64,000 nt of DNA from Evansella sp. LMS18 (GTDB lineage: Bacteria > Bacillota > Bacilli > Bacillales > Salisediminibacteriaceae), in contig NZ_CP093301.1 in assembly GCF_024362785.1 (NCBI RefSeq), positions 682,001 through 746,000 of the forward strand, given 5' to 3'. Under the pieces are notes generated by a model. That model had not been told where the DNA came from, did no database searches, and saw nothing but the letters and a program-made list of their open reading frames with translations. Shown piece after piece: positions 2,442 through 38,896 of this stretch. The position numbers were made by a program, and so were the translations under genes. Every line of letters begins with the position of its first letter. The first letter of the stretch is position 1.

Positions 2442-2775
2442 GAATCAATTTCATATATAGACTCTGCATAAAAAAGACGAACATTAATCTTCGATGGCAG
2501 CGTAAGACGGCGGTGACTGTCTCTTCCTCTGCCAGCTTAGCTCCGTAGAACATACGTCGAGACAACTCGATGCATTTGCGGTGAAGAAGATGCTCGTTCT
2601 TGCGGGAAAAGCATGAAAAGCTGAAAATCCATTTTTGACGGCATTCAGCCGTCAAAAATTAGTTGAAGCCGTGCCCGCAGAACGCGTCCGTCTGTAGCGT
2701 AAATCGAATTACAAAGTGACTTTTTAAGATAATGTTCGTATTCATGATAAAAAATTTGAATTATGAAATTGAGTC
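2442..2775 (+). mobile_element. MITE-like element family B, copy B1 (long form)
   Basis: 334 bp bounded by GAATCAATTTCATA and, inverted, ATGAAATTGAGTC. Directly outside lie identical 4-bp repeats ACTT (2438-2441 and 2776-2779). Inside is a perfect 11-bp stem TTTTTGACGGC / GCCGTCAAAAA (2632-2658) and the block GCCGTGCCCGCAGAACGCG found in most copies. No transposase or credible frame. It sits between the divergent sppA and NAD kinase genes. Confidence 0.85.
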
Positions 2776-2891
2776 ACTTGTTTAATTTTTCACGTTTGTG
2801 CAGGATTTGTTGAAAAAAACGAGAATACCACTAATCAGAACGGTTAAACGTTCCACCTCAATGATGTATTGCAGAAAGGATGAAAACAGTA

Positions 2892-3689
2892 ATGCCTAAT
2901 CGTAGAAATGTTTATTTATATTACACCCCTTCTGATGAATTAGAGCCTAAAGTGCAGGAGTTAAGAAAACTTGGAAGAAAATACGACTTCCAGCTCGTTA
3001 AAACCCCTGAAGAAGCCAATATAATTGCCAGTATTGGCGGCGACGGGGCTTTTCTGCAGGCAATCAGGAAAACAAAATTCCGGGAAGATTGCTTATATGT
3101 AGGAATCAACGATGGCCATCTTGGCTTTTATACGGATTTTGACCTGAATAACCTGGAAAGGATTGAAGCCGGAATGCAGGCTTCCGGCCTGGAAGTGCTT
3201 CGGTATCCAACCCTGGAAGTGACTGTCGACGGAATGCAGAGCTTCCAGTGCCTGAATGAGTGTGCGATCCGCTCCAATATTATAAAAACTTTTGCTATCG
3301 ATGTGTTTATTGATGACTTATATTTCGAAACCTTCCGTGGAGACGGAATGGTTGTTTCCACACCAACAGGCAGTACAGCCTATAATAAATCACTTGGTGG
3401 AGCAGTAGTTGACCCTAAGCTTAAAGGTTTCCAGCTCACAGAAATATCCTCCATCAACAACAACCAGTACCGTACTCTTGGCTCTCCGCTTCTGCTAAAC
3501 AAGGATCGTGAGCTCGTCTTAAAGGTCATTCAGGACGGAAACGACCATCCAATAATTGCAGCAGATAACGAAGCACTAAGTATAAGGCACATTCACGAGC
3601 TGAAAGTCCGGCTGTCAGAAAAAGAAATCAAAACTTTGCGTATGAAGGATAACCTCTTTCTTCACAAAGTGCGAAGAAGCTTTTTATGA
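2892..3689 (+). CDS. ppnK: NAD kinase (second Bacillus type, YtdI/NadF2)
   Basis: 265 residues from ATG 2892; the in-frame ATG at 2880 abuts the AGAAAGG ribosome site and is less likely. It phosphorylates NAD to NADP. Seen: the GGDG nucleotide motif (IASIGGDGAFLQA, about residue 47), NECAIRS, and STPTGSTAYNKS, all hallmarks of the family. The closest remembered relative is the ytdI product rather than the other paralogue PpnK1. Transcribed away from sppA with repeat B1 filling the upstream space, so its promoter must lie in, or between 2776 and 2870 after, the element. A terminator follows at 3720. Confidence 0.92.
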   Translation: MPNRRNVYLYYTPSDELEPKVQELRKLGRKYDFQLVKTPEEANIIASIGGDGAFLQAIRKTKFREDCLYVGINDGHLGFYTDFDLNNLERIEAGMQASGLEVLRYPTLEVTVDGMQSFQCLNECAIRSNIIKTFAIDVFIDDLYFETFRGDGMVVSTPTGSTAYNKSLGGAVVDPKLKGFQLTEISSINNNQYRTLGSPLLLNKDRELVLKVIQDGNDHPIIAADNEALSIRHIHELKVRLSEKEIKTLRMKDNLFLHKVRRSFL

Positions 3690-3719
3690 TTTAAGAAGTA
3701 CAAAACCTTAAAAAATCTC

Positions 3720-3758
3720 GAGGCTGGGACAGGAGATCGTTTCGTCCCTGCCTCTTTT
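3720..3758. terminator. Bidirectional terminator between ppnK and ytcJ
   Basis: GAGGC-TGGGAC ... GTCCC-TGCCTC stem followed by TTTTAGTTTT on the plus strand; on the minus strand the same stem is followed by GAGATTTTTT. The genes converge here. Confidence 0.85.
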
Positions 3759-3762
3759 AGTT

Positions 3763-5385
3763 TTAATTCTCCGCTGTTGCCGTACCGGCTTGCCTGTCAT
3801 ACATTACCGTATCATCCACTACTGTTTTTTCAACTTTCACTTCTAGCCATTCATCAGGCTCCAGCTCAAAAAGATCTTCGCTCAGGACGGTGAAATCAGC
3901 GGTATAGCCGCTTTTGATAAGCCCCTGCTCGTTCTCTTTACATACTGCCTGAGCACTGCCATATGTATATAGACGAAGAGCCTCAAATAAAGTAAGCTTC
4001 TGTTCAGGATAATATCCTTCATGCTTTTCTTCTGGTTTCCTTCTTGTGACAGCAGCATGAATGCCAAGCAATGGATCCACAGGCTCTATCGGGGCATCTG
4101 AACCACCGGCACAGATTAATCCTGCATCTAGCAAGGTCTTCCAGGCGAAAGAATACTTCATTCTTTCTTTGCCAAGCCTGTCTATCACCCACGGAAAATC
4201 GGAAGCAACAAATCTTGGCTGGAGATCCAGAATAACAGGAAGCTTTTTCATCCTGTCAATCAAGTCTTCTCTCGCAACCTGTATGTGAATAAGCCTGTCA
4301 CGCTGCCCGTCTGAGACTGGCGGGATTTTTTCAATAATGTCAATTGCAAGCTCAAGAGCGGCGTCCCCTATTGTATGTACAGCAATCGGCATATTCAGAT
4401 TCCTGGCTTTTCTTACAATGTCCTGCAGTTCCTCTCGGGAGTATATAGCCACTCCTTTCGTTGTTGCATCGTCTGCATATGGTTCGCTGAGGAGAGCTGT
4501 TCTTCCTCCAAGAGCACCATCTGCAAAAATCTTTACAGAACCGGCTTCCACAAAATTACTTTGTTCTCCAGCGGTAGCCATTTCAGACAGTATTTGTTCT
4601 GCAACTTCATGGTGAATAAGAAGATTGGCACGGAACTTCACTTTCACCCCATCAATTTTTTCGTGGAAAGCCGCTAATGTACCTGAGGGGTCTCCGTAGT
4701 AATTCAGGTCCTCTGTATGGCCTCCAACAAAACCCTTGCTTAACAAGTCATGAATTGATGTTCCGAGAGCCTTCTTAACATAATTTAAGCTTATAGAGGG
4801 AGCAGCTTCCCGGATTAATTCCTGAGCCTGGTCCAGCAGATAACCAGTAGGAATACCTGTATTATCCTTTACGATTATCCCGCCTGAAGGTTCCGGAGTT
4901 TCCGGCGTTATTCCCGCAAGCTCCAGTCCATATGAATTCGTAACGAGAGCATGGCGGCAAACCCGGGATAAAATAATCGGGTGTTCTGTAGTTACTTCGT
5001 CCAGAATATATCTGTCCGGCACTTTTGCATCTGCATATAAATTTTCATTAAAACCTTCTCCGACGAGCCACTCCCCCGGTGGAAGGCTGGCAGCGGCCTC
5101 AAGCAAGGTGTTTTTCAATTTATCAATACTGTCTATTTCAGAGAGGTCGAGTTTCAGGAGTTTCTCTCCGTGCCCCACCATATGTAAATGACTGTCAGTA
5201 AAACCAGGGTACATAACAGCACCTTCAATATCTTCCATCCTCGTAATTTCTTCCTTGAATTCGGATAGCAATTGTTCTTTGGTCCCAGTTCCCCGAATGA
5301 TTCCGTCTTTTACAAACACCGCTTCCTTACTATCGTGCTCATTCTCCAGTGTTCTTACTTTACCTCCGTACCACAGTGTTCCCAC
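3763..5385 (-). CDS. ytcJ: Amidohydrolase family protein YtcJ
   Basis: 540 residues, the size of the amidohydrolase_3 (YtcJ) family. A short N-terminal beta-sandwich part precedes the TIM-barrel; the metal-binding start is DSHLHMVGHG (near residue 64), later HTEDLNYYG, AVHTIGDAA, IHIQVA, and GGSDAPIEPVDP near residue 430, the order expected of a metal-dependent hydrolase of cyclic amides or similar. The substrate is not known. Gene order ytdI-ytcJ-sspA matches B. subtilis. It converges on the NAD kinase gene and has repeat B2 upstream of its start. Confidence 0.88.
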   Translation of the reverse strand: MGTLWYGGKVRTLENEHDSKEAVFVKDGIIRGTGTKEQLLSEFKEEITRMEDIEGAVMYPGFTDSHLHMVGHGEKLLKLDLSEIDSIDKLKNTLLEAAASLPPGEWLVGEGFNENLYADAKVPDRYILDEVTTEHPIILSRVCRHALVTNSYGLELAGITPETPEPSGGIIVKDNTGIPTGYLLDQAQELIREAAPSISLNYVKKALGTSIHDLLSKGFVGGHTEDLNYYGDPSGTLAAFHEKIDGVKVKFRANLLIHHEVAEQILSEMATAGEQSNFVEAGSVKIFADGALGGRTALLSEPYADDATTKGVAIYSREELQDIVRKARNLNMPIAVHTIGDAALELAIDIIEKIPPVSDGQRDRLIHIQVAREDLIDRMKKLPVILDLQPRFVASDFPWVIDRLGKERMKYSFAWKTLLDAGLICAGGSDAPIEPVDPLLGIHAAVTRRKPEEKHEGYYPEQKLTLFEALRLYTYGSAQAVCKENEQGLIKSGYTADFTVLSEDLFELEPDEWLEVKVEKTVVDDTVMYDRQAGTATAEN

Positions 5386-5494
5386 AGCCTGCCCCTCCTG
5401 ACATTTATTCTCTTATAACTGCTGATATTTTCCATATTAAGAGTATCACACAATCAGATTTTAATAAAAACAATGATTATTTTTTTTAGTAAGT

Positions 5495-5944
5495 GAATAA
5501 ATTTTATATAGATTTTACATAAAAAAAGACGGACATTGCTTTTCGATTGCAGCGTAAGACGGCGGTGACTGTCTCTTCCTCTGCTCCTGCGGTTACTCGT
5601 CGCAAAAAGAGACCTGCTCCTGCGATCACTCGTCGCAAAAAGAGACCTGCTCCTGCGGTTACTCGTCGCAAAAAGAGTTCTGCTCCTGCGGTTACTCGTC
5701 GCAAAAAGAGTTTTGCCAGCTTAGCGCCGTAAAATATCCATCGAGACAACTCGATGCATTTGCGGTGAAGAAGATGCTCGTTCTTGCGGGAAAAGCATGA
5801 GAAGCTGCCATTTTTGCCGGCGTTCAGCCGTCAAAAATTAGTTGAAGCCGTGCCCGCAGAACGCGTCCGTCTGAAGCGTAAATCGAATAATTTTAAAGTA
5901 CTGTTCGTATTAAAGATGAATATCTGGAATTATGAAATTGATTC
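5495..5944 (+). mobile_element. MITE-like element family B, copy B2 (long form, expanded)
   Basis: 450 bp between 4-bp direct repeats AAGT (5491-5494 and 5945-5948). Ends read GAATAAATTTTATATAG and, inverted, GAATCAATTTCATAATTCC. It is the long form plus a 132-bp tandem expansion at 5581-5712. The TTTTTG-CCGGC / GCCGTCAAAAA hairpin is present with one mismatch. Confidence 0.85.
5581..5712 (+). repeat. 33-bp tandem repeat, four units, inside copy B2
   Basis: Units start at 5581, 5614, 5647 and 5680, each opening CTGCTCCTGCG and containing ACTCGTCGCAAAAAGAG. Units differ by only a few bases. The other long copies (B1, B4) lack this block; it is inserted where they read CTCTTCC(T)TTGCCAGC. Confidence 0.95.
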
Positions 5945-5960
5945 AAGTTCAGAGCTCTTA

Positions 5961-5998
5961 AAAAGCATCCCCCGAAACCGGAGGATGCTTCTTTATTC
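5961..5998 (-). terminator. Terminator of sspA
   Basis: On the minus strand AGCATCCTCCGGTTTCGGGGGATGCT forms a strong stem-loop followed by TTTTTAAG, 11 bases after the sspA stop. Confidence 0.85.
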
Positions 5999-6009
5999 CA
6001 CTTATTTTA

Positions 6010-6201
6010 TTAACTCATTTGCTGCTGAGCCATTGAAACTAAACGTTTAGTAATCTCTCCACCTACTGATCCGTTAGCCCGGGATGTTGTGTCAGCACCC
6101 AGCTGTACGCCAAACTCCTGAGCAATCTCATATTTCATCTGATCTAAAGCTTGTTGTACACCAGGGACTAATAATTGGTTAGAACTGTTGTTGTTCGCCA
6201 T
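6010..6201 (-). CDS. sspA: Alpha/beta-type small acid-soluble spore protein
   Basis: 63 residues from ATG 6201, behind GGGAGGTGAAAAAG; the frame extends further upstream but without support. It coats and protects spore DNA and is degraded on germination. Seen: the Asn/Ser/Gln-rich start, the germination-protease site region [11 protein letters not shown], and the family C-terminal motif [15 protein letters not shown]. Gene position (ytcJ-sspA-thiI) is that of B. subtilis sspA. Expression should be confined to the forespore: the upstream sequence has a good sigma-G promoter (6225-6254). Confidence 0.96.
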
Positions 6202-6224
6202 CTTTTTCACCTCCCTTGTAATCA

Positions 6225-6254
6225 TAGATTGCACAGAATAAAGGGAATAATTCA
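6225..6254 (-). promoter_or_regulatory. Sigma-G-type promoter of sspA
   Basis: On the minus strand TGAATT, a 17-base spacer, then CAATCTA, close to the forespore consensus TGAATA-17/18-CATACTA. It lies about 25 bases upstream of the sspA start. Consensus from memory; spacing counted directly. Confidence 0.75.
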
Positions 6255-6361
6255 GTTAAAAAGATGGTTATTAAACCAGTTTTTGGAAATTAATTTACTA
6301 ATGTACCAGTTCAGTATTTAAGCTAAAGATTTGGGTTCCTTATCAACATCAGGATTTCTTG

Positions 6362-7570
6362 TTAAAAAAGGTCCTCAAACTCTTTTTCTATATTTGTATC
6401 GTGCTTGATAAACACTGTTTCGATACCTTCCACTGCTTCACTTACAAACTTATCCACGTCAATCGCCTGCTCATAAGCTGCCGCTTTTTTTATGGATGGG
6501 CGCGTTTTTGTCTGAGGCGGCAGGAAAATAGTACAGCAATCTTCATAAGGCAGGATTGATAATTCGTAAGTGCCGATATTTCTGGCAATATCGATGACCT
6601 CCAGTTTGTCCATTGTGACCAGCGGCCGGAGTATCGGCAAATTAGTAACTTCGTTTATTGTATGCATGCTGTGGAGCGTCTGGCTGGCAACCTGGCCGAG
6701 GCTTTCCCCGTTTACAAGAGCGAGAGCTCCATTTTTTTCAGCTGTTGCTTCTGCGATCCGCAGCATGAAACGGCGCATAATTGTCATTTCATAGTTATCT
6801 GGCACTTTCTTATGAATCTCCTGCTGGGCTGCAGTAAATGGGACGATGTGCAGTTTAATCCTGCCCCCGAACCTTGTAAGCACCCGGGCTAAATCTTCCA
6901 CTTTCTGTCTCGCCCGTTCATTTGTGAACGGAGGGCTGTGGAAATGGATAGCTTCGAGCTCCACCCCTCTCTTTAAAGCAAGATATCCTGCAACAGGACT
7001 GTCAATTCCACCGGAAAGCATAAGCATTACTTTCCCGGCCGTACCAACAGGAAGACCACCTGCCCCTTTTCTTGATTTGCACATAATGTAGCAGGCTTCA
7101 TCCCTGATCTCTACTTTAACTTCCACATCGGGGTTATGCACATCAACTGTCAGCTCTTTCGTATTTCTCAATATATGGGAGCCGATATGGTAATTCAGTT
7201 CCTGGGATCTTTTCGGAAAATTTTTATTCGCTCTTTTCACGGATACTTTAAAGGTCCCTCTTTCTTCAGGGAGTGCATCTTTTATTGCCCATAATGCCCC
7301 TTCGTCAATCCGCTCCTGGTCAAGTTCCAGTTTTAACGCCGGACTAAAGGAATGTATGCCGAATATATCTTTCAGGCGATCAGAAACTGCTTCTTCCTCT
7401 GCGCCGTTCAGTTCGATAAACATTCTTCCAAATGATCTTATCACTTTGATTTCCGGGAATTTCTTCAGAGCTCTTTTAAGATTGTCCTGAAGTTTTTTTT
7501 CAAATTCTTTTCTGTTCTTCCCTTTCAGAGCCAGCTCAGCATACCGAATTAAGATATGATTGTAATTCAT
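6362..7570 (-). CDS. thiI: tRNA uracil 4-sulfurtransferase ThiI
   Basis: 402 residues, as in Bacillus, and without the C-terminal rhodanese domain of E. coli ThiI. It makes 4-thiouridine in tRNA (and may supply thiamine sulfur) using persulfide from a dedicated cysteine desulfurase. An N-terminal ferredoxin-like and THUMP region (to about residue 165) precedes the PP-loop SGGIDSP near residue 185. Its ATG overlaps the iscS stop by the ATGA arrangement, so desulfurase and acceptor are translated together, as expected for the nifZ-thiI pair in which the desulfurase serves ThiI specifically. Confidence 0.95.
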   Translation of the reverse strand: MNYNHILIRYAELALKGKNRKEFEKKLQDNLKRALKKFPEIKVIRSFGRMFIELNGAEEEAVSDRLKDIFGIHSFSPALKLELDQERIDEGALWAIKDALPEERGTFKVSVKRANKNFPKRSQELNYHIGSHILRNTKELTVDVHNPDVEVKVEIRDEACYIMCKSRKGAGGLPVGTAGKVMLMLSGGIDSPVAGYLALKRGVELEAIHFHSPPFTNERARQKVEDLARVLTRFGGRIKLHIVPFTAAQQEIHKKVPDNYEMTIMRRFMLRIAEATAEKNGALALVNGESLGQVASQTLHSMHTINEVTNLPILRPLVTMDKLEVIDIARNIGTYELSILPYEDCCTIFLPPQTKTRPSIKKAAAYEQAIDVDKFVSEAVEGIETVFIKHDTNIEKEFEDLF

Positions 7571-8712
7571 TGTTTGTTTACCACCTTTTTCAGAGAAGCA
7601 ACAATATTACTGAACTCAGCAATAAACCTCTCCGCTTCTTCAAATGTATTTTCGTATGTCAAAGAAATCCTTAAAGCACTTGATGCTCTTTCCTTATCGT
7701 ATCCCATTGCGATCAATGTCCTGCTGGGTTCCGTTTCCCGGCTGGAGCAGGCAGACTTAGTCGAGACATAAATATCTTTTTCCGCAAGAGCCTGAACCAT
7801 TACTTCCGGCTTTATGCCTGGTACAGCAATATTAAGAATATGCGGCGCCCGCTCCTCTGGAGAGTTTATAACCACACCAGGAATATTACTGCATTTCTGT
7901 TCCATCCAGCGATTTATTTTTTCCATTTGAGGAAGGGAAGTTTCCGCTTTTCCCATACTCATTCTCAGAGCTTTTACCATAGCGGTAACACCAGCAACAT
8001 TCTCAGTTCCTGCTCTGATTCCTCTCTCCTGGCTGCCGCCGGACAGAAGAGAATGGAGCCTGACACCGTTTCTCACATAAAGTATTCCGCTCCCTTTCAT
8101 GCCATGGAATTTATGAGCGGATAATGTACTTAAATCCACCTTTGCAGTTCTGAAGTCCAGAGGCACTTTTGCGGCGCCCTGTACATGATCAACATGAAAC
8201 AATACTTTAGGATAACGAGAAAGCACTTCGCCAATTTCCTGGACAGGCTGTATACTTCCTGTTTCATTATGGACATGTATAAGAGAGACGAGAATAGTTT
8301 CGTCTGTAAGTTCTTCTTTCACCTGTTCCGAAGTAATTATCCCATTATTATCGGGTTCCAGATAGGAGACTCTGAATCCCTCTTTTTCGAGCTGCTGAAA
8401 TGCTTCCAATGATGAAGCATGTTCTGTACGGGAGGTAATTAAATGATTTCCCCTGCCCTGGTACTGATGGGCAGTTCCTTTTATCGCCAGGTTATTACTT
8501 TCTGTTCCTCCGGAAGTAAAAAGAATTTCTGATGGGTTTACCTTCAATAACTCCGCGGCCCGCTCCCTTGCCTGGACTAGAAGGCGCTCAGAGATTTTCC
8601 CTAAAGGATGGAGGGAGGATGGGTTGCCAAAATATTCTGTGGACACTTTCAAATATGTGTCAGATACTTCCGGGTATGGGCGGGTTGTAGCACTGTTATC
8701 AAAGTAAATCAT
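7567..8712 (-). CDS. nifZ: Cysteine desulfurase dedicated to ThiI (NifZ type)
   Basis: 381 residues from ATG 8712, behind AAGGAG; further upstream codons lack a ribosome site. PLP enzyme converting cysteine to alanine and enzyme persulfide. Seen: the start MIYFDNSATT, the PLP lysine in LSAHKFHGMKG, and the catalytic cysteine loop STKSACSS near residue 320. Coupled to thiI by a 4-base overlap. The divergent neighbour is braB, and repeat B3 occupies the space between. Could equally be named iscS; the pairing with thiI favours the nifZ (YtbJ) subtype. Confidence 0.93.
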   Translation of the reverse strand: MIYFDNSATTRPYPEVSDTYLKVSTEYFGNPSSLHPLGKISERLLVQARERAAELLKVNPSEILFTSGGTESNNLAIKGTAHQYQGRGNHLITSRTEHASSLEAFQQLEKEGFRVSYLEPDNNGIITSEQVKEELTDETILVSLIHVHNETGSIQPVQEIGEVLSRYPKVLFHVDHVQGAAKVPLDFRTAKVDLSTLSAHKFHGMKGSGILYVRNGVRLHSLLSGGSQERGIRAGTENVAGVTAMVKALRMSMGKAETSLPQMEKINRWMEQKCSNIPGVVINSPEERAPHILNIAVPGIKPEVMVQALAEKDIYVSTKSACSSRETEPSRTLIAMGYDKERASSALRISLTYENTFEEAERFIAEFSNIVASLKKVVNKQ

Positions 8713-8868
8713 CGTTTTTTTTCTCCTTTTTCTTCCAATATTATATATGTCAATCACAGCCATTACCTATTCTCTCGTATAAAAAAGATACAGACTGCAA
8801 CAATTAATCATACCATACCAGGGTGCAAAGGAAAAACAATTAATTACATGTATAATTGCATTTAATTT

Positions 8869-9116
8869 GTATGAATTTCATATATAGACTTTGCATAAAA
8901 AAGACGAACATTCCTTTTCGATTGCAGCGTAAGACGGCGACTCTGGCGGGAAAAGCGCGAGCTGAAAATCCATTTTTTACGGCGTTCAGCCGTCAAAAAT
9001 TAGTTGAAGCCGTGCCCGCAGAACGCGTCCGTCTGTAGCGTAAATCGAACAACAAAGTAACATTTTAAGATAATGTTGGTATTAATGATAAAAATCTTGA
9101 ATTATGGGATTGATTC
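8869..9116 (+). mobile_element. MITE-like element family B, copy B3 (short form)
   Basis: 248 bp between direct repeats AATTT (8864-8868 and 9117-9121). It lacks the roughly 85-bp internal segment of long copies: GACGGCGACTCTGGCGGGAA replaces it. Hairpin TTTTTTACGGC / GCCGTCAAAAA has one mismatch. It lies between the divergent nifZ and braB genes and ends 20 bases before the braB promoter. Confidence 0.85.
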
Positions 9117-9136
9117 AATTTATTTAATTTTAACTG

Positions 9137-15357: not shown

Positions 15358-15610
15358 GCCTGGAATTTATCGCCAGGATAATTTAATGCCATTTATTAGC
15401 AAGTGGTTCCATTCTACGATTCTTTGATCGGAAGGGTGGGATCACTTGTCTTTTATTTTACCCTACCTGCTTAATCCTGGTACAGGGAGAAAAACTAAAG
15501 CGCACTGCGCCGGTGATAAAGTGCCGTGACAGTATAGAGTTTCTTTTTAATGTAAATCTCGTTTTTCACCTTTTGAAGTATAGGGTTATTATGCAGAAGA
15601 GATCTTGCAC

Positions 15611-15714
15611 CCCCTGAGCAGCGTCGTTCTCCCTTCTCAAGTACCGCAAGACGCTCTTGCATCCCTTGAGCAGCGTGGTTCCCCCTTCTCAAGTAACGAA
15701 AGACGCTCTTGCAC
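15611..15714 (+). repeat. 52-bp tandem repeat, two units
   Basis: Units at 15611-15662 and 15663-15714 share TGAGCAGCGT, CCCTTCTCAAGTA and AGACGCTCTTGCA, with a few substitutions; a partial third copy (GATCTTGCACCCC) precedes. Found in the long space between ytsP and rpsD. No credible coding sense on either strand. Confidence 0.85.
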
Positions 15715-20698: not shown

Positions 20699-20985
20699 AA
20701 AAAAAACCCCTCCCTTACCATAAGGGACGAGTTTACCGCGGTACCACCCTAATTGAAAACAGCCTTGTTTTCCACTCTATGAGTTAACGCCTCATCACAC
20801 GTTCTTTTTTTCCAGCAGGAAATCCTAAACCTGAGTATCATAAGAAAATCCCAGGCTGGTTCAAAAGAAAACTCCAAGGACGTAATTCATTTTTCGTCTG
20901 TGTACCGGTTCGCAGCAACCACCGGTTCTCTGAGACAGTGAGACTTAAACTACTTCATCCTTTTCAACGTCTGGATATTTAAATG
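20699..20985 (-). promoter_or_regulatory. T-box riboswitch of tyrS
   Basis: On the minus strand the T-box core AGGGTGGTACCGCG is followed by a terminator (CCCTTA-TGG-TAAGGG and GGGGTTTTTTTT). Upstream, stem I shows GATGAAGTAG, the distal part AACCGGTGGTTGC / GCGAACCGGT, and the specifier region GAATTACGTCC with UAC for tyrosine. All expected parts are present in order. Confidence 0.95.
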
Positions 20986-24272: not shown

Positions 24273-24599
24273 GAATGAATTTCATATATAGACTTTGCAT
24301 AAAAAAGAAGAACATTACTTTTCGATTGCAGCGTAAGACGGCGGTGACTGTCTCTTCCTTTGCCAGCTTAGTTCCGTAGAATATCCGTCGAGACAACTCG
24401 ACGCATTTGCGGTGAAGAAGATGCTCGTTCCTGCGGGAAAAGCATGAGAAGCTGAAAGGCCATTTTTGCCGGCGTTCAGCCGTCAAAAATTAGTTGAAGC
24501 CGTGCCCGCAGAACGCGTCCGTCTGTAGCGTAAATCGGACAATAAAGTAACTTTTAAGATAAAGTTCGTATTAATGATGAAAATCTTGAAAATTGATTC
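24273..24599 (+). mobile_element. MITE-like element family B, copy B4 (long form)
   Basis: 327 bp between direct repeats ATTT (24269-24272 and 24600-24603). Ends GAATGAATTTCATATATAG and, inverted, GAATCAATTTTC. Long form with about 90% identity to B1 by eye. It lies between the penicillin-binding protein gene and acuA, where B. subtilis has acsA near acuA. Confidence 0.85.
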
Positions 24600-28145: not shown

Positions 28146-28384
28146 GAATCAATTTCATAATTCAGGATTTTCATATTTAATACGAACGTTACCTTAAAAT
28201 GTTACTTTGTTATTCGATTTATGCTTCAGACGGAAGCGTTCTGCGGGCACGGCTTCAACTAATTTTTGACGACTAACGCGTCAAAAGTGATTTTCAGCTC
28301 GCACTGTTCCCGCCAGAGTCGCCGTCTTACGCTGCAAGTATGTTCGGCTTTTCTTTTTACCAAGCCTATATATGAAATTCATTC
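28146..28384 (-). mobile_element. MITE-like element family B, copy B5 (short form, inverted)
   Basis: 239 bp between direct repeats AATT (28142-28145 and 28385-28388). Opposite orientation to B1-B4. Short form; the central hairpin has decayed (TTTTTGACGACTAACGCGTC), so this looks like an older or relaxed copy. It lies between mtnN and motS. Confidence 0.83.
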
Positions 28385-31507: not shown

Positions 31508-31515
31508 GCCTGATA

Positions 31516-32619
31516 TTATTTTTGTACTGCCACAGCTTCTTTTTCTCTTTCATAAAGCCCTGAAGCAATAAGGTTTGAGACGAATTCACTGAACTGAGGA
31601 ATATCCATTTGTTGTGCAGAGTCAGACAGCGCTACTGCAGGGTCAGGATGAACTTCCGCCATTACTCCGTCAGCACCAATTGCCAGTGCCGCTTTCGCTG
31701 TAGGGAGCAGGAGATCCCTGCGTCCTGTGGAATGTGTTACATCCACCCATACAGGCAAGTGTGTTTCCTGTTTTAAGATCGGAACAGCAGAAATGTCCAA
31801 TGTGTTTCTCGTTGCCTTTTCATACGTACGGATACCCCGCTCACAGAGCATAATGTTTCCATTTCCTCTTGAATGGATATACTCGGCTGCATTGATGAAT
31901 TCTTCAATAGTAGCAGAAAGGCCGCGTTTTAGAAGGACTGGTTTGTCTACGCTTCCCGCTGCTTTCAGAAGCTCGAAATTCTGCATGTTACGTGCACCGA
32001 TCTGGATGACATCCACATACTGCAATGCCATTTCAATATCTTGAGGGCTGACAATTTCACTAATAACTGCCAAATCGTATTTATCGGCTGCCTTCCTTAG
32101 TATCTGGAGCCCTTCTTCCCCAAGCCCCTGGAAATCGTAAGGAGAGGTACGCGGTTTAAAAGCCCCCCCACGGAGAAACTTCACTCCCTCTGCTTTCAGA
32201 GCTTTTGCTACTTCCTCCACTTGCTCGTATCCTTCTACTGAGCAAGGTCCGGCAATAAGGCGCTGTTTTCCATCACCGACTTTTTCATTTTTAATCGGTA
32301 CAACCGTATCTTCCGGATGTCTTTTCCTGGATACAAGCAGTGCCTTACGGTGATCGTCTTCCTGAAGCTCCAGGCTCGCTTTGAATATCTGCTTAAACAG
32401 ATGCTGAAGCGTCGATGTTTCGAACGGTCCCTGATTTTCTTCCGCAATAAGGTCAAGCATTTTACGCTCTCTTACGGGATCAAAACGGTTCAGGCCCTGT
32501 GAGCTCTTCACCCTGCCTATTTCCTTAACTAAGCTCGCTCTCTCGTTAATAAGCTCCATCAATTGAAGATTTACTTTATCCAATTGATTTCTCAACTCTT
32601 CTAATTGTTCGTTACCCAT
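31516..32619 (-). CDS. aroA: Bifunctional chorismate mutase / DAHP synthase
   Basis: 367 residues. N-terminal AroQ-type chorismate mutase (about 1-90, [23 protein letters not shown]) fused to a type I-beta KDO8P-like DAHP synthase (about 110-355: [65 protein letters not shown]). It condenses phosphoenolpyruvate and erythrose 4-phosphate, the first step to aromatic amino acids; in this fusion the mutase domain senses prephenate/chorismate for feedback control (B. subtilis AroA(G)). AGGAG precedes the ATG. Upstream is a 650-bp space with iterated motifs and no T-box. Confidence 0.96.
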
Positions 32620-32925
32620 AAGAAAACTCCTCCCATTTACATCAGCTCATATTGTATAGCTTGTTGTTTACGGACTATTATATACGATGAAACATATTCT
32701 GTCACGGGGTTTCTTTAACAATTAAACGCTTTTATGCGCTAAAGTATTTATTTATTATTCTGTAAAAGCCTTTCCCACGGGCTTTTGCGGTACAACCTTT
32801 TTTAAAAACTGTTTGAAAATTTTATAAAAATAATTTTTATAAGTTTTATAAAACAAGTGTCCACCTCCCTGATCCACCCTATTAGCGATTGAGGATCCAC
32901 AAGTGCTTTGCTTTCCGTGCAGATC

Positions 32926-33137
32926 GGTTCTTCATTCCGCTATTCGGTTAAAATCCTTACTCTTAAGCTGTTTTTAGGATCCTCGTTCCGCTATTTAACC
33001 ATTTCTCCGTTGAAATCACTAAAATTTCTGCTGATAACGGAACGTGAAACCATCACACCTCCAGAGAAACACCTGTTCATCCATTTAAAGGAATGAGAAA
33101 CCGTATGCACAGCGCTTACGGTTCCTCATTCCCTTAT
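32926..33137. repeat. Cluster of five 19-20 bp motifs in both orientations
   Basis: Motif AATA(G/A)CGGAA(C/T)GAGGAACC-like. Minus-strand copies at about 32927-32946 (AATAGCGGAATGAAGAACC), 32977-32995 (AATAGCGGAACGAGGATCC) and 33118-33136 (AATAAGGGAATGAGGAACC); plus-strand copies at 33036-33054 (GATAACGGAACGTGAAACC) and 33086-33104 (TTAAAGGAATGAGAAACCG). The last two face each other and form a 17-bp imperfect hairpin at 33088-33137. Intergenic between aroA and ytxJ. Confidence 0.75.
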
Positions 33138-33177
33138 TCCACTGTCATCCCCCTGAACTCACCAACTCGAATTAAAA

Positions 33178-33212
33178 AATACAGGCCAAATCCCCCGGAT
33201 CTGGCCTGTATT
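33178..33212 (-). terminator. Terminator of ytxGHJ
   Basis: On the minus strand AATACAGGCCAGATCC ... GGCCTGTATTTTTTAAT: 11-bp stem with T run, 57 bases after the ytxJ stop. Confidence 0.87.
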
Positions 33213-33268
33213 AATATACTGCTTCATATATTCTCCGCCGAGTCAGAACCGGCTTCTTGTTCACACAC

Positions 33269-33601
33269 CTATTTATTCTCCCACGCCTTCGCCAGCTCTT
33301 TTTTCGTTACCTTCCAATGGGAGGCATGCCAGGATACTTTCCCGTCTGAAAACAAGAGTGCCTGGGGAGATTCATGTTTAACATTGTATTTCTCAGCCAC
33401 TTCATTGGAAAGGTCCCTCAGTTCCTGGACGTTCAGGTAATATACAGGAACACTGTCATTTTCTCCAGCGAAATTTTCCGTTTCTTTAAACGCTTCATGG
33501 CTTATAGGACAGGTAGTACTGTTTTTAAGGAGAATCAGTGTTTCCTGCTCTTTCAGCACTTCTTCAAACTGTTGCTCTTCTTCAATTTTAGTTAGGGCCA
33601 T
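33269..33601 (-). CDS. ytxJ: Bacillithiol-system monothiol bacilliredoxin YtxJ
   Basis: 110 residues from ATG 33601 (GGAGGGG 10 bases upstream); coding overlaps the ytxH end by 14 bases. Thioredoxin fold with a single active cysteine in NSTTCPISHEAF, the monothiol TCP(I/V)S motif of YtxJ, and YLNVQELRDLSNEVAEKYNVKHESPQALLF, containing the cis-proline. It probably removes bacillithiol from mixed disulfides (family knowledge). Third gene of the general-stress operon ytxGHJ. Confidence 0.93.
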   Translation of the reverse strand: MALTKIEEEQQFEEVLKEQETLILLKNSTTCPISHEAFKETENFAGENDSVPVYYLNVQELRDLSNEVAEKYNVKHESPQALLFSDGKVSWHASHWKVTKKELAKAWENK

Positions 33602-34127
33602 TTGCCTCTTCCCCTCCTGCATCCTGATTTTCCGGAGATGAAGCGCCGTTCTTCTCATTTCTGGCCTTTTCTTTCTCTTCTACTTCTTTAACCAGCTGCT
33701 CTACAGAACGCTGGAGATCTTCAACTTCTTTCCTTACGGAAGCAGCAATCTCATCGCTGATTCCTTCCATATCATCTGTGAGATAATCGGCAGATTCTGT
33801 GAGCTCCTCCATGTCTTTTCGGACCTTGCCTGCAAGGTCTTTAACCTTTTCCACTAAACTGGAGGACTGTCCTGAAACTGTTTTAGCGATAGTGCTGGTG
33901 CCTTCCTTTGCAGTTACGGCCAGCTGGTTTCCTTTTTCCACTGCCTGGCTGGTCCAGTCTGTCGTTCTGTCCTTTGCTGCCCGCGCCTGTTCGTTAATAT
34001 CGCTGCGAAGCTCTTTACCTGACTTGGGAGCTGTCAGAAGGGCTGCCGCTGCACCTATTGTTCCTCCTACGAACATTCCAATAATAAAATCTTTCGTATT
34101 CATACCGTTGTTATTCTCGCCCATCAC
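33588..34127 (-). CDS. ytxH: General stress protein YtxH
   Basis: 179 residues. Glycine-rich hydrophobic start (KDFIIGMFVGGTIGAAAALLTAPKSGKELR), the YtxH/DUF883-like signature in which TAPKSGKELR is diagnostic, then amphipathic Ala/Glu/Lys-rich helices to the end, like LEA-type proteins. Exact role unknown; made under stress and at the onset of stationary phase in B. subtilis. Longer than B. subtilis YtxH by an acidic C-terminal coiled-coil region. Second gene of ytxGHJ, 20 bases after ytxG. Confidence 0.9.
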   Translation of the reverse strand: MMGENNNGMNTKDFIIGMFVGGTIGAAAALLTAPKSGKELRSDINEQARAAKDRTTDWTSQAVEKGNQLAVTAKEGTSTIAKTVSGQSSSLVEKVKDLAGKVRKDMEELTESADYLTDDMEGISDEIAASVRKEVEDLQRSVEQLVKEVEEKEKARNEKNGASSPENQDAGGEEANGPN

Positions 34128-34147
34128 AATTCCTCCTTGGAAAATAA

Positions 34148-34591
34148 TTATTTTACTTTTGTCTCTTTAGTATCTATATCTGCTTTTTTTGCTTTCCACT
34201 TTCCCCAGAAATCCAGAGCAACATTGCCCCATTTAACAGCCTGCGCCACCTGGTCTGACTGTTCATTCGCTTTTTTGGAAATTGCAGCGGAGACCGTCTT
34301 TAAAGAATGGTTCACATTCTGGACTGTTTCTCCAAGATCATTGGCCGCTGCAAAAACAGAGTTCAACGAATCTGACTTTCGCTGAATATCATCAGCAAGC
34401 AAATTCGTTTTATGTATCAGTTCCTGGGACTCCTTTGTAATTCCATCAACCTGCTGCTGTAGTCCCTCAACAGTAGACGATACATTATCCAATGTTTGCT
34501 TCATGGAGATTAATGTCTTGATCAAATAAAAAACCAATGCCGCGAAAGCAACTGCGATAATTGCTACACTCAAATATAATAGCCACTCCAT
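34148..34591 (-). CDS. ytxG: DUF948 general stress membrane protein YtxG
   Basis: 147 residues from ATG 34591, behind AGGAGG; a GTG at 34603 is closer to, and overlaps, the ribosome site. One N-terminal membrane helix (YLSVAIIAVAFAALVFYLIKTL) then a long amphipathic helix with heptad spacing (LDNVSSTVEGLQQQVDGITKESQELIHKTN...), as in DUF948 proteins. First gene of ytxGHJ. A good sigma-H promoter lies 92 bases upstream; I see no clear sigma-B promoter, although the B. subtilis operon uses both. Confidence 0.88.
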   Translation of the reverse strand: MEWLLYLSVAIIAVAFAALVFYLIKTLISMKQTLDNVSSTVEGLQQQVDGITKESQELIHKTNLLADDIQRKSDSLNSVFAAANDLGETVQNVNHSLKTVSAAISKKANEQSDQVAQAVKWGNVALDFWGKWKAKKADIDTKETKVK

Positions 34592-34682
34592 TAACGAAAG
34601 CACCTCCTGAATTTATTCTATATCTTTTAAACACTCTAAAAAGAGTATTACTGCCTGCAGGTAATTTCATCCCTCATTATCA

Positions 34683-34712
34683 TTATTCTACATTTTTTTC
34701 ACTAAATCCTCC
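34683..34712 (-). promoter_or_regulatory. Sigma-H-type promoter of ytxGHJ
   Basis: On the minus strand GGAGGATTT, 12-base spacer, GTAGAATAA. Every defined position of the consensus RnAGGAwWW-N11/12-RnnGAATww is met. The operon is known to be sigma-H dependent in B. subtilis. Confidence 0.75.
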
Positions 34713-34831
34713 ATTATTGTGTAATTTACCTGTCAGGGACAGCATGCGTTACGCTGGTTTCCTGTAAAAGAAGTGTGTAGAATATAACCATACTTTAATC
34801 ATTATACAATTTACAGGAGGAATAAAAAAAG

Positions 34832-35947
34832 ATGAGAGATCCTCGAATTCAGACACTTGCGAAAAACTTAATCAATTATTCGGTAAACCTTCAAAAAGGA
34901 GAAAAACTGCTCATTGAAAACTTTGGCCTCCAGAAGGAGCTTGTAAGCGCCTTGGTGGAGGAAGCTTATGAAGCAGGTGGTCTTCCTTTCGTTTCCCTGA
35001 AAGAGCATGAAATAAACCGTTCTTTACTCATCGGAGCTGATGAAGAACAGCAGAATCTCACTGCACAATTTGAAGCTCAGGTTATGAAAGAAATGGACGC
35101 ATACATAGGACTCAGAGCTGGTGATAACATAAATGAGCTGTCAGACGTTCCTGATGAAAAAATGAGCCTTCACCAAAAAACTGTAGGTACAAAAGTACAC
35201 AGAGAAATCCGCGTGCCGGAAACTAAATGGGTGGTCCTCCGTTATCCTACCTCTTCTATGGCGCAGCTGGCAAAAATGAGCACAGCAGGTTTTGAAGATT
35301 TCTATTTCAATGTGTGTAATCTCGATTACAGCAAAATGGATAAAGCAATGGACGCTTTAGTGGAACGGATGAATAATACAGACGAAGTAAGAATAACCGG
35401 TGAAGGTACAGACATCAGTTTTTCCATAAAAGATATTCCCGCAATTAAGTGTGCAGGAAGGCTGAACATCCCTGATGGTGAAGTGTATACTGCACCTGTC
35501 AAAGATTCAGTGAACGGGACTATTACTTATAACACTGCTTCACCTTATCAAGGTTTCTCCTTTGAAAATATTAAATTCACATTTGTGAACGGAAAAATTG
35601 TCCAGGCAGAATCAAATAACACAGAGAAAATAAATGCCATACTGGACACAGACGAAGGTGCCCGTTATATCGGAGAATTTGCAATAGGCGTTAATCCATA
35701 CATACTCCACCCAATGCAGGATATTCTTTTCGACGAGAAAATAGACGGAAGTTTCCATTTCACCCCAGGGCAGGCATACGATAATGCTTATAATGGGAAT
35801 GACTCTGCAGTACACTGGGATATAGTGAATATCCAGCGCCCGGAATACGGCGGCGGCAAAATCTATTTTGACGGAGAACTCATCCGGGAAGATGGAAGGT
35901 TTGTTGCAGAAGACCTTAAATCACTAAATCCGGAGAATTTGAAGTAA
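34832..35947 (+). CDS. M29 family aminopeptidase (AmpS/PepS type)
   Basis: 371 residues, somewhat shorter than the 410 of B. subtilis AmpS. Metallo-aminopeptidase that trims N-terminal residues from peptides in the cytosol. Seen: an N-terminal helical domain, then ITGEGTDISFSIKDI, NIPDGEVYTAPVKDSVNGTI (metal-binding Glu region), GEFAIGVNP, and the C-terminal HFTPGQAYDNAYNGNDSAVHWDIV with the His and Asp ligands. AGGAGG precedes the ATG. Single gene; a B6 element follows the stop by six bases. Confidence 0.9.
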   Translation: MRDPRIQTLAKNLINYSVNLQKGEKLLIENFGLQKELVSALVEEAYEAGGLPFVSLKEHEINRSLLIGADEEQQNLTAQFEAQVMKEMDAYIGLRAGDNINELSDVPDEKMSLHQKTVGTKVHREIRVPETKWVVLRYPTSSMAQLAKMSTAGFEDFYFNVCNLDYSKMDKAMDALVERMNNTDEVRITGEGTDISFSIKDIPAIKCAGRLNIPDGEVYTAPVKDSVNGTITYNTASPYQGFSFENIKFTFVNGKIVQAESNNTEKINAILDTDEGARYIGEFAIGVNPYILHPMQDILFDEKIDGSFHFTPGQAYDNAYNGNDSAVHWDIVNIQRPEYGGGKIYFDGELIREDGRFVAEDLKSLNPENLK

Positions 35948-35952
35948 CACAT

Positions 35953-36206
35953 GAATCAATTTCATAAACCTAGATTTTCATCATTAATACGAACATTATC
36001 TTGAAATATAACTTTGCTGTTCGATTTACGCTTCAGACGGACGCGTTCTGCGGGCACGGCTTCAACTAATTTTTGACGGCTGAAGGCCGTCAAAAATGGA
36101 TTTTCAGCTCGCGCTATTCCCGCACGAGTCGCCGTCTTACGCTGCAATCGAAAAGTAAAAAATGTTCGTCTTTATTTTTTAAAAAGTCTCTATATGAAAT
36201 TCATTC
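35953..36206 (-). mobile_element. MITE-like element family B, copy B6 (short form, inverted)
   Basis: 254 bp between direct repeats ACAT (35949-35952 and 36207-36210). The central hairpin is perfect: TTTTTGACGGC-TGAAG-GCCGTCAAAAA. The left target repeat begins two bases after the aminopeptidase stop codon, so this copy inserted immediately behind a gene and now provides the first stem-loop of its 3' end. Confidence 0.88.
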
Positions 36207-36232
36207 ACATCTATAAACTTTCGAAATCCATT

Positions 36233-36270
36233 AAAAAATCCCCGGGGATGATTCCCCGGGGATTTATTTA
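36233..36270. terminator. Bidirectional terminator between the aminopeptidase and murC
   Basis: AAAAAATCCCCGGGG-atgatt-CCCCGGGGATTTATTTA; strong 8-bp GC stem extended by AT pairs, with A and T runs on the two sides. Confidence 0.85.
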
Positions 36271-36306
36271 TCCGGCTGGCTATAATGCCGCCGGGTAATT
36301 ACTTAT

Positions 36307-37611
36307 TCAGTTACTGACTTTCAGTGCTTCGTATGCCCGCTGGAACTTTTGCACATCTCCGGCACCCATGAACAGCAGTACCCCATTTTCATGTTCTGTC
36401 AGCTGGCTGACCGTGTCTTCTGTCAGAAGTTTTGCCCCTGGAATTCGGTCCTGCAGGTCCTGGATTGACAGCTCCCCGCCTTTTTCCCTTGCAGATGAAA
36501 ATATATCACAAAGGTATACATGGTCCGCTGTTTTCAGGCTCTCCGCGAATTCATCGAGGAATGTTTTCGTCCTCGTAAAGGTATGAGGCTGAAATACTGC
36601 CACAACTTCTCTTGAGGAATACTTCTGCTTCGCCGATTCAATCGTTGCCGAGATCTCTGTTGGATGGTGGGCATAATCATCAATAAGAATCTGGGAACCA
36701 AATTCCTTCTCAGTAAAACGCCGTTTTACCCCTTTAAAAGTCTTCAGCTGTGATTGTACTACTTCCACTTCCACCCCTTCATAATGGCAAAGGGCAATGA
36801 CAGAGAGGGAATTAAGGACGTAATGATTTCCGTATCCCGGCACTGTAAACGAAGCGTATAATGAATTACGGACGTAAACGTCAAAATGTGTTCCTTCTTC
36901 ATCAGTGCGGATATTTTTCGCACAGAAGTCATTATCGTCGTTCAGGCCATAATAAACGACGGGAACCTGTGCATTGATTTTCTGAAGATACTCATCATCT
37001 CCGCAAGCGATAATAGCCTTGTTTACCTGCATCGCCATGTCCTGAAAAGCAGCAAATACATCGTTCACATCTTTGAAGTAATCCGGGTGGTCAAAATCAA
37101 CATTGGTCATAATCGCGTAATCCGGTTTGTAATTGAGAAAATGCCGGCGATACTCACAGGCCTCAAAAACAAAGTATTCACTTTCTTCTTCGCCTTTCCC
37201 AGTGCCGTCCCCTATAAGGAAAGATGTAGGTTTTGCTGCCTGAAGCACGTGGGACAGCAAACCTGTCGTAGAAGTTTTTCCGTGGGAGCCAGTAACAGCG
37301 ATACTCGTAAATTGCTGAATGAACTCTCCAAGGAAATTCGGATACGGGTGTACAGGTATGTTAAGTTCGTTTGCCGTCCTGATCTCTTCATTTTCATCGT
37401 TGTAAGCCGCGGAAGCGATAATAGTCTGGCCTTCCTCTATGTTTTCCTTTTGAAACGGAAGCAAAGGAATTCCTTTTTTCTCCAGAGGCTTCTGGGTAAA
37501 AAATTCTTTATCTACATCTGAACCTTGGACACTAAACTTCATGTCGCTCAATATTTGTGCTAATGCGCTCATTCCTGAGCCTTTAATTCCAATAAAATGA
37601 TAAACTGTCAT
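36307..37611 (-). CDS. murC: UDP-N-acetylmuramate--L-alanine ligase
   Basis: 434 residues from ATG 37611 behind GGAGG; frame further upstream unsupported. It adds L-alanine to UDP-MurNAc, using ATP, in the cytosolic stage of wall precursor synthesis. Seen: N-terminal Rossmann [16 protein letters not shown] loop [12 protein letters not shown] (residues 106-117), [10 protein letters not shown], and C-terminal [10 protein letters not shown]. Gene order murC next to sftA and ytxGHJ agrees with B. subtilis. The 297 bases upstream hold nothing I recognise. Confidence 0.96.
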
Positions 37612-37908
37612 GTTGAACCTCCACAAATCCATTGGTTCTAAGGACTGCCTTAGCACCAGGCTTTTTTGTACGGGTATCTCTAAAGTATATGCCTAATTAA
37701 TATTAATTGGGAATAGAAATTTCATACTTTCCCATTATAGCAAAAAAGCAAAACGGGAAACAATCAATATAATTATATTACCCCTTATTCCTAAGCTTTG
37801 ATTTTTTCCGTCTGCATCCCTGATTTCCCAGAAGCCAGGCTTATGGAAGAAGATGTTATGGCAATGTCAAAGCAAGTTAATAATAAATCAGGCTGACTAC
37901 TCTTATCT

Positions 37909-38571
37909 TTACCCCTTTTTGTGTCTTAAATAATCAATTCCCGACTCTTTTAAGTATTTTCTTACTCTTCCTTCTTTTCCTGCAGTTTTTATTTCAGATA
38001 AAATATCCGCTACGTCACTATCTGCAACCGCAAAGGGAGGACCAATAATAAAGTTTTTAAATCCTGCCCGGACTATTCTGAGAAAAACTGTATCGCCTTC
38101 CTTAATGCTGAAACTGCTTTTGAGGAAAAACACAGCCTCCCTTTCTCCCCCTGAACTGTCCAGGGCGCCTGAAAATATAATTTCGTCATCTTCAACTGCT
38201 TTAATATGTACAGGCTCCAGCGCCATCAGCATCATAAACCCGCTTAGATCCAGCATTGGCTTGGTTAATTCCTCTTGTTTTTCCCTTACAAATAAGTCAA
38301 ACATCCTCGAACCTGTTACTGTAATGTAATCAAAAGCGAACCAGTGTTCAAAATGCAGGGCTGTATTGTGCTCTAATATATATTCTGCCGGTATGCCGGT
38401 TTTATGGGAGAAAATCTGCTTTGCCCGTACTTTTTCCCGTATATTGGCTTCCTTATCAATATAAGTAAACAATTTCTCGTAAAGTTCCATGAGGGCATTT
38501 TCCATATGTTTTTGTTTTTGCTCTTTTACCGTTTCGAAATCAATAATAAACGAAGCATGCTTTTCGTCCAT
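37909..38571 (-). CDS. Uncharacterised cytosolic protein
   Basis: 220 residues from ATG 38571 (AAAGGAG 8 bases upstream). I do not recognise a named family. A helical N-terminal half contains HFEHWFAFDYITVTGSRMFDLFV, which resembles the FxxWFxFDY stretch of Bacillus proteins related to SEC-C-motif proteins, and a beta-rich second half with EGDTVFLRIVRAGFKNFIIGPPF reads like the 'KGD...RI' segment of the same group; the SEC-C zinc motif itself is absent. No signal peptide or membrane helix. Monocistronic, with repeats B7 and C1 upstream. Confidence 0.75.
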   Translation of the reverse strand: MDEKHASFIIDFETVKEQKQKHMENALMELYEKLFTYIDKEANIREKVRAKQIFSHKTGIPAEYILEHNTALHFEHWFAFDYITVTGSRMFDLFVREKQEELTKPMLDLSGFMMLMALEPVHIKAVEDDEIIFSGALDSSGGEREAVFFLKSSFSIKEGDTVFLRIVRAGFKNFIIGPPFAVADSDVADILSEIKTAGKEGRVRKYLKESGIDYLRHKKG

Positions 38572-38646
38572 ACCGGCACTCCTTTCTCTTATGCTGCAAT
38601 AAGAGTTATCATTCATGTTTACCAGGTTTTCCCCAGATAAATAAAA

Positions 38647-38896
38647 GTATGAATTTCATAATTCTAGATTTTCATCTTTAATACGAACACTATCTTAAAA
38701 TGTTACTTTATTGGTTCGATTTACGTTTCAGACGGACACGTTCTGCGGGCACGGCTTCAACTAATTTTTGCCGGCTGAACGCCGTCAAAAATGGATTTTC
38801 AGCTCGCGCTGTTCCCGCCAGAGTCGCCGTCTTACTCTGCAATCGAAAAGTAATGTTCGTCTTTTTTTATTAAAAGCCTATGTATGAAATTCATTC
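38647..38896 (-). mobile_element. MITE-like element family B, copy B7 (short form, inverted)
   Basis: 250 bp. Ends GTATGAATTTCATAATTC and, inverted, GAATGAATTTCATACATAG. Flanks are AAAA and AAAT, so no clean target repeat is left; the right flank is a short (AAAT)n run that may have slipped. The hairpin has one mismatch. It is followed after 18 bases by family C copy C1. Confidence 0.8.

Follow-up and report, generated by a model that had tools for sequence, protein, structure and literature searches.

A 64-kb stretch of an Evansella genome (the whole stretch that was analyzed, hereafter the window) holds seven related sequence blocks in its intergenic spaces, raising the question of whether these are mobile elements and, if so, what they carry. 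All seven blocks reported in an earlier note on this DNA were confirmed at their positions, and a core model built later recovers 7/7. On the forward strand, B1 (2442–2775, core 2569–2720) is a full element with an extra block of ~84 bp at about 2513–2596; B2 (5495–5944, core 5753–5899) is likewise full and carries, besides the extra block, tandem repeats of 33 bp at 5581–5710, a unit that reaches 15.8 copies in the element copy at locus L093; B3 (8869–9116, core 8913–9061) is a basic element of 248 bp; and B4 (24273–24599, core 24400–24551) is again a full element with the extra block. On the reverse strand lie three basic elements, B5 (28146–28384, core 28201–28346), B6 (35953–36206, core 36008–36156), and B7 (38647–38896, core 38703–38851). 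The elements are non-coding, and none in the window contains a transposase, as had been noted. Their density is high, with seven copies compared with 1.6 expected per 64 kb.

The ends are inverted repeats beginning GAAT(C/G)AATTTCATA, as first described, with GAATSAATTTCATA at both ends followed by a second block, CGAACATT. The inner inverted pair GACGAACATT / AATGTTCGT is also present; it is not a separate nested repeat, since each end has two parts and this pair forms the inner one, about 36–45 bp in. Flanking direct repeats had been claimed for six blocks, and exact 4-bp repeats were found at B1 (ACTT), B2 (AAGT), B4 (ATTT), B5 (AATT), and B6 (ATGT or ACAT, depending on the strand). The AATTT claimed for B3 belongs to a 5-bp register; compared over 4 bp, the B3 flanks match at 3/4 positions, as do those of B7.

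To extend the count to the genome, a core word was used, which gave 121 matches in 4.90 Mb (reversed control, 0). The projected "hundreds per genome" was thus somewhat high, whether judged by these matches or by the 155 candidates of a first look. Most copies in this genome are imperfect. Duplications were counted on 117 matches drawn from the window, the first-look loci, the surroundings of 100 core-word places, and single ends, so that up to ~21 of the 121 fall outside the count; 25 matches were partial, and 16 of the 92 near-full copies were left out for poor ends. The remaining 76 copies with both ends recognizable are 219–450 bp long, and 44 of them have an exact 4-bp flanking repeat, ten times the frequency expected by chance (mean 4.2 and maximum 12 per 76 copies in 1000 rounds with shuffled right flanks). 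Repeat lengths of 2 and 3 showed no excess, and length 5 a small one (4/76 versus 0.08).

The blocks might instead be regulatory elements inherited in place, with flanking 4-mers that match by chance in AT-rich DNA, and their intergenic location would agree with this. The shuffled maximum of 12 stands against 44 exact repeats, and a comparison with Evansella clarkii revealed empty sites. A 464-kb segment contained 15 matches, both flanks of which could be placed in E. clarkii for 13. Four of the 13, including B5 and B6, are shared by the two species, as inheritance in place would have it, and nine (two of them 90-bp fragments) are absent; the possibility raised in the earlier note that a sister species carries every copy therefore does not hold. 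The B3 site forms a nearly perfect filled/empty pair, the remaining pairs being noisier. At B1, the E. clarkii site is occupied by an inverted copy, and at B7 it lacks the element in locally divergent sequence. In the reverse direction, 2/6 placed E. clarkii copies are absent from the genome of the window, one of which (at 2282040) is clean and has a perfect empty site with a single AATT. Inheritance in place is refuted by these empty sites, and we consider it vanishingly improbable. The 4-mer excess and the E. clarkii comparison support the original reading of transposition: given the 121 matches, the 44/76 repeats, and the filled/empty pairs, the seven blocks very probably belong to a real family of MITEs (non-autonomous DNA transposons) whose core is structured and conserved. 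We infer that a transposase acting in trans moves them; it would recognize the bipartite end of ~45 bp, in which GAATSAATTTCATA precedes CGAACATT, and would make cuts staggered by 4 bp at AT-rich targets of the form T|AWWT|A.

The two-part ends were also detected in 9/59 other genomes (the reversed control gave four matches in three genomes). In GTDB genomes, 104 stretches contain them, and 37/51 end pairs assigned there with confidence are flanked by an exact 4-bp repeat, compared with 3.1 on average and at most eight after shuffling; viral contigs searched for the end pattern yielded 0 stretches. The ends thus occur in other genera, and Rummeliibacillus suwonensis contains ten 264-bp copies that are recent, with a median identity of 95.8%.

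An insertion sequence carrying the same ends, suggested in the earlier note as a target for searching, was not found among the genes and loci examined. The search covered DDE_Tnp_1, IS1182-type, and IS1380-type genes (PF01609, PF13751, and PF13701) in R. suwonensis, A. persepolensis, the Evansella genome of the window, and E. clarkii, and none of the examined genes was flanked by the ends. An examinable locus was available for 30/32 PF01609, 20/30 PF13751, and 8/8 PF13701 matches; five of the ten PF13751 matches without their own locus are genes already covered under PF01609. The three families are the extent of this search. At two places in R. suwonensis, worn copies or single ends adjoin transposase remnants, never surrounding them. 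Across all 104 GTDB loci, no long end pair enclosed a transposase: the long span at L224 is an assembly-gap case, that at L237 is a 675-bp element with two cores, those at L303 and L321 run between separate elements, that at L257 is a weak 2.7-kb span, and that at L291 is a chance-like 983 bp. Open reading frames beside 17/24 single ends, judged by eye, were host genes, with no transposase recognized. R. suwonensis is a host in which a live transposase may be caught.

Inside the elements, the GC-rich block, which had been likened to repeats in other Bacillaceae, forms part of a structured ~110-nt module, and the earlier remark on its relatives was correct and understated. The core consists of three stem regions, an internal loop with UGAA opposite UGAA, which would fit tandem sheared G-A pairs, and a freely varying terminal hairpin. 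Compensatory change demonstrates this fold, with covariation exceeding both shuffled and slid controls: among 32 cores, 17 of the 25 pairs changed on both sides, and 93.4% of cells are paired, compared with 77.2% after shuffling and 35–48% when slid. The pattern used to choose these 32 holds certain letters constant, and their letter conservation is to that extent built in. In an alignment of 69 distinct cores fitted to a covariance model, and hence tilted toward the model's fold, a single fold accommodates 94.8% of paired cells (74.0% shuffled) and 20/25 pairs changed on both sides. The covariance model found the core in 104/149 other genomes of the order, many of them with at least 20 scored matches, compared with 0/158 others sampled over the phylum; 62 of the 84 genera sampled contain it. 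Weak core matches also occur on plasmids (one Planococcus, two Kurthia, and one Radiobacillus record), where they are unannotated. A search of Rfam 15 at the gathering score returned only a T-box in the window and no family on the elements; with B3 as the query, up to E 10, it gave two weak matches far below gathering, and at ten further loci it placed no family on the element.

The core is not confined to one carrier. The same core is present in a second MITE type, whose ends start with GGCTCTGTTAAAG and whose duplications are 8 bp long. At least two sets of ends therefore accompany the core, which was also found with neither. This distribution could mean that the core itself is the mobile unit, entering MITEs or recruiting ends and moved by its own enzyme, for example a REP-type Y1 transposase. 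In the GAATSAATTTCATA type, the duplications sit at the element ends, and 0/4 Y1_Tnp genes of the window's genome have an element or core within 1.5 kb; at one Y1_Tnp locus, L160, similarity is limited to 23 bp of B2's left end (E 0.003). A REP/RAYT origin of the core was therefore rejected for this genome, with no Y1_Tnp gene flanked by the repeat, and a self-moving core is very unlikely overall. Our tentative reading, to which we give somewhat less than even weight, is that a structured RNA (or single-stranded DNA) module unmatched in Rfam 15 has spread through Evansella's order on at least two unrelated MITE chassis with different ends and repeat lengths. The module may be cargo under selection: host transcripts would be unharmed by insertions carrying it, or would profit from them, and transposon families that capture it would win.

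In what form the core would act is much less certain than its fold. Judged from sequence patterns, there is about an even chance that the module acts as RNA in the transcripts that run through an insertion, for instance by making insertions in operons tolerable. The evidence from orientation is mixed: within tandem-gene contexts of the window's genome, 52 copies are sense and 22 antisense (p 0.0006), a significant bias, but pooled other genomes show none (17 sense, 12 antisense, p 0.46). G-U cells outnumber A-C cells in the core pairs (40 versus 17), but G-U makes up only 2.5% of standard pairs, a low share for an RNA that would fit selection acting on DNA or on the two strands alike. The core might instead act as DNA, as an extruded one-strand hairpin or a cruciform bound by a transposase or host protein, its fold being kept for transposition. 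The scarcity of G-U pairs, the lack of orientation bias outside the window's genome, and the travel of the core with moving elements are consistent with such a role, whereas the sense bias in the window's genome and the excess of G-U over A-C speak for RNA. One transposase is also unlikely as the common binder, given that the elements carrying this core differ in their ends and in target-repeat length. On balance, we regard a DNA role as possible and rather less probable than one in RNA. The fold could also be a functionless remnant of a palindromic origin, kept by quasi-palindrome correction in ordinary MITE relics. Such correction at the DNA level would suit the few G-U pairs, and decay would suit the imperfect state of most copies in the window's genome. 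Against it, whole stems have been replaced with loop letters retained among cores of more than ten genera, the core reaches across most genera sampled, and the R. suwonensis copies are recent; we consider this explanation unlikely.

MITEs are usually viewed as empty relics of an insertion sequence. The interior of these elements keeps its fold better than its letters across many genera and is common to unrelated end types, which raises the question of why transposons would keep one folded cargo. The 104 other genomes of the order constitute a large natural data set on such cargo, and a covariance model is now available for repeats that have no Rfam match in the elements searched.

Among the matches listed in the open PubMed Central literature, including those for core and end sequence strings, there was no paper on the core or the ends. 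Several known systems are similar in part. ISL3 elements have 8-bp duplications and ends starting GGCT, and ISL3-type MITEs thus resemble the second carrier of the core, with its GGCTCTGTTAAAG start and 8-bp duplications, but differ from the elements of the window in both ends and duplication length (4 bp). In the Bacillus cereus group, bcr1 and the other bcr repeats (100–400 bp, dozens of copies, mobile features; PMC6542083), counted among MITEs (PMC3733652), share size range, copy number, and mobile features with the window's family. As far as the excerpted descriptions go, bcr differs in its TTTAT motif and in the confinement of bcr1 to the B. cereus group (PMC6542083), whereas the family reported here has 4-bp AWWT duplications and is order-wide. 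BOX, RUP, and SPRITE of Streptococcus pneumoniae are MITE-like with predicted RNA folds, and BOX is modular, with a variable tandem boxB block (PMC3049150) that resembles the 33-bp units of the window's elements; they belong to another host group, and the excerpted account describes no inner module across unrelated ends. The MRSC-65-2 motif, as outlined in part of its report (PMC11109978), resembles the core in its covarying structure, its many copies (often dozens per genome), and its possible mobility, and whether it acts as RNA or DNA is likewise left undecided there; it differs in having a single long stem, UYCCGG repeats, and a distribution over diverse phyla, compared with three stem regions and an absence from the genomes sampled elsewhere in the phylum for the core. 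Bhal-1 of Bacillus halodurans, a 74-bp intergenic structured repeat with 36 copies and a conserved stem-loop (PMC2267715), is, by the excerpted description, similar to the core in being intergenic, multicopy, and built around a conserved stem-loop, and may be an earlier sighting of it.

The Evansella sp. LMS18 window carries seven related blocks in the places where the earlier note had described MITE-like copies (B1 2442-2775, B2 5495-5944, B3 8869-9116, B4 24273-24599, B5 28146-28384, B6 35953-36206, and B7 38647-38896). B3, B5, B6, and B7 have the basic form of 239-254 bp, while B1, B2, and B4 are longer forms with an extra block of ~84 bp, B2 also containing 33-bp tandem units. Across the genome, a single contig of 4,903,744 bases, a 25-base word from the GC-rich core of the element matched 121 times with at most three mismatches (61 forward and 60 reverse; reversed control, 0). 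A copy set was drawn from the initial candidate loci and from stretches around 100 core-word places and around single ends; with three window-repeating loci excluded, its profile search gave 117 matches scoring 60 bits or more. Of these, 92 were near full length, 11 contained the 33-bp unit, and 76 had both ends with at most four mismatches (53 copies of up to 260 bp, 15 of 300-345 bp, and 8 of 346-460 bp). One element (L093, 2252-2774) encloses a 33-bp minisatellite of 15.8 units with 98% matches, and in three loci (L026, L065, and L106) elements adjoin head to tail, two or three in a row.

The proposal that direct repeats flank the copies as a mark of transposition was borne out genome-wide: the flanking 4 bases were identical on both sides in 44 of the 76 two-ended copies, compared with a mean of 4.2 and a maximum of 12 in 1000 shuffles of partners. 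Per-position flank agreement was 82-87% at length 4 and 12-62% at other lengths, with a small excess of length-5 repeats (4/76), and the target site consensus was T, AWWT, A. We compared 464 kb of this genome with 400 kb of Evansella clarkii, in which gene order is kept at 90% identity. Among 15 matches in the own-genome segment, 13 had both flanks placed; four were common to both species (561642, B1, B5, and B6) and nine were missing from E. clarkii. Of these nine, 620233 and B3 face near-exact empty sites, 636990 and 792840 are themselves 90-bp fragments, and the remaining sites differ by other sequence. The B2 counterpart is a remnant. Conversely, the E. clarkii segment had eight matches, six with placed flanks, of which four were common and two missing from LMS18. 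At E. clarkii 2282040, the filled site has two AATT and the LMS18 site one, a perfect empty site of the single-4-mer kind that the earlier note had proposed looking for; base-level agreement is less clean for 620233 and for E. clarkii 2161499. The DNA side of the account, a mobile element, is well supported. At B1, the E. clarkii counterpart (C1:2367020-2367280) has the same ACTT repeats and the element in opposite orientation, lacks the extra block, and has a repeated stretch at one end; the difference in orientation would be explained either by the element having inverted in situ or by two insertions into the same target.

Each element end consists of two parts, GAATSAATTTCATA and CGAACATT, with the word AATTTCATA starting mostly 32 bases ahead of CGAACATT. 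The end pattern was present in 10 of 60 genomes (LMS18 included), belonging to 4 of the 33 genera. Its reversed control also produced 4 hits, spread over 3 genomes, and an isolated end, such as that in G008, which has no second end, can therefore be chance. Scanning GTDB genomes yielded 104 stretches, the 80 named ones including Rummeliibacillus, Alteribacillus, Amphibacillus, Alkalicoccus, Texcoconibacillus, Lysinibacillus, Paraliobacillus, Salsuginibacillus, and other Evansella, together with a single end in Emticicia, which lies outside the group of the other genera and is likely a chance match. End pairs were mostly spaced 150-400 bp apart, and 37 of 51 confident pairs had an exact 4-bp repeat (shuffled, 3.1; maximum, 8). 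Rummeliibacillus suwonensis has ten 264-bp copies with a median pairwise identity of 95.8% in ungapped comparison. The earlier note had also suggested seeking an insertion sequence with these ends; none appeared as a long end pair in the 104 stretches, none of the PF01609, PF13751, and PF13701 genes examined in R. suwonensis, A. persepolensis, LMS18, and E. clarkii was flanked by them, and no transposase was recognised by eye among ORFs beside 17 of 24 single ends.

Inside the element lies the core, a structured module of ~110 nt. A pattern search of the collected loci gave 120 unique cores, and 32 chosen among 64, with near-duplicates thinned, were aligned over 161 columns. Letters around CTC..GGA and GA.G.C..GCCC were prescribed by the search pattern, which accounts for part of the invariance there; no such constraint applies to the outer stem, terminal hairpin, or 5' UGAA. 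RNAalifold predicted 25 pairs, 17 with compensatory change. Paired cells made up 93.4%, compared with 77.2% when letters were shuffled and 35-48% when partners were slid, and the covariation score was 0.467 versus 0.191. Columns 56-99 are A-U in 16 cores and G-C in the other 16, the pair being intact in all. For the outer stem, some genera have AGACGG/CCGTCT and others have GAAATACAC/GTGTATTTC, and the terminal hairpin changes wholesale between cores. Near-invariant letters lie between the stems, including UGAA facing UGAA, which would fit tandem sheared G-A pairs. A covariance model run on 58 chosen sources gave 75 matches, 69 of them distinct, with 94.8% of cells paired (shuffled, 74.0%) and both sides changed in 20 of 25 pairs, in an alignment that leans towards structure, having been made by the model itself. 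The elements searched had no match in Rfam 15.

End types were sorted in the flanks of the 75 matches, with 0.3% false calls on shuffled flanks. GAATSAATTTCAT occurred at one or both sides in Evansella, Alkalicoccus, Texcoconibacillus, Alteribacillus, Rummeliibacillus, and the sampled genomes G009, G016, G041, G049, and G121; GGCTCTGTTAAAG occurred on both sides in G009, G018, G115, and G120; in G012, G015, G017, G087, G124, G128, and G141, every match had neither type. In G009, three 215-bp copies (L152-L154) carry GGC..TGTTAAAG at their ends and are flanked by exact 8-bp duplications, the second end of a fourth copy tried (L155) being unmatched. The GAATSAATTTCAT type is weaker there, comprising a two-sided copy with two mismatches per end (L157) and a single two-part end (L131); judged from these few copies, G009 likely holds both carrier types. 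The sorted flanks and the G009 copies thus indicate that the core travels in elements differing in ends and duplication length. With strict filters and rough E-values, the covariance model recognised the core in 105 of the 150 genomes sampled from the order (LMS18 included) and 62 of 84 genera, often with at least 20 scored matches per positive genome and in some with just one or two. In a phylum-wide draw of 159 genomes, which among those listed included one other of the same order and three of the same class, LMS18 alone matched under equally strict filters. A core-like match also lies in a 1,566-bp record labelled plasmid from Planococcus sp. MB-3u-03 (NZ_CP025132.1, 984-1122), with no annotation beneath.

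The window contains other repeats. A two-block family (CAATCAGTGGGG... and TAGCGTCCGTTATC...GGACGGTTACATCGGG) occupies 38906-39061, 57447-57574, and 59602-59764, one copy directly adjoining B7; a repeat resembling this family occupies the place of copy 635389 in E. clarkii. A 79-bp repeat starting AGGCGAAGACAGAGGCGTAG has two copies 84% alike (728-806 and 43887-43965), two tandem 52-bp units 88% alike lie at 15603-15706, and a T-box leader is on the minus strand at 20720-20976 (Rfam RF00230, 131 bits).

We lean towards the core acting as RNA, although it may instead serve as a DNA hairpin. With neighbour genes taken from simple ORF calls, tandem-gene contexts in LMS18 were sense in 52 and antisense in 22 (among 108 copies flanked by a neighbour gene on each side), and G-U cells outnumbered A-C cells by 40 to 17, both favouring RNA; by contrast, other genomes pooled lacked an orientation bias (17 sense versus 12 antisense in 45 contexts), and G-U made up just 2.5% of standard pairs. 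Our literature search found no published account of the core or the ends among the matches listed. MITEs with a folded interior are already known, namely bcr1, BOX, and RUP (BOX and RUP in PMC3049150). Bhal-1 of B. halodurans, given as 74 bp with 36 copies in PMC2267715, may, from its description, be an earlier sighting of the core.
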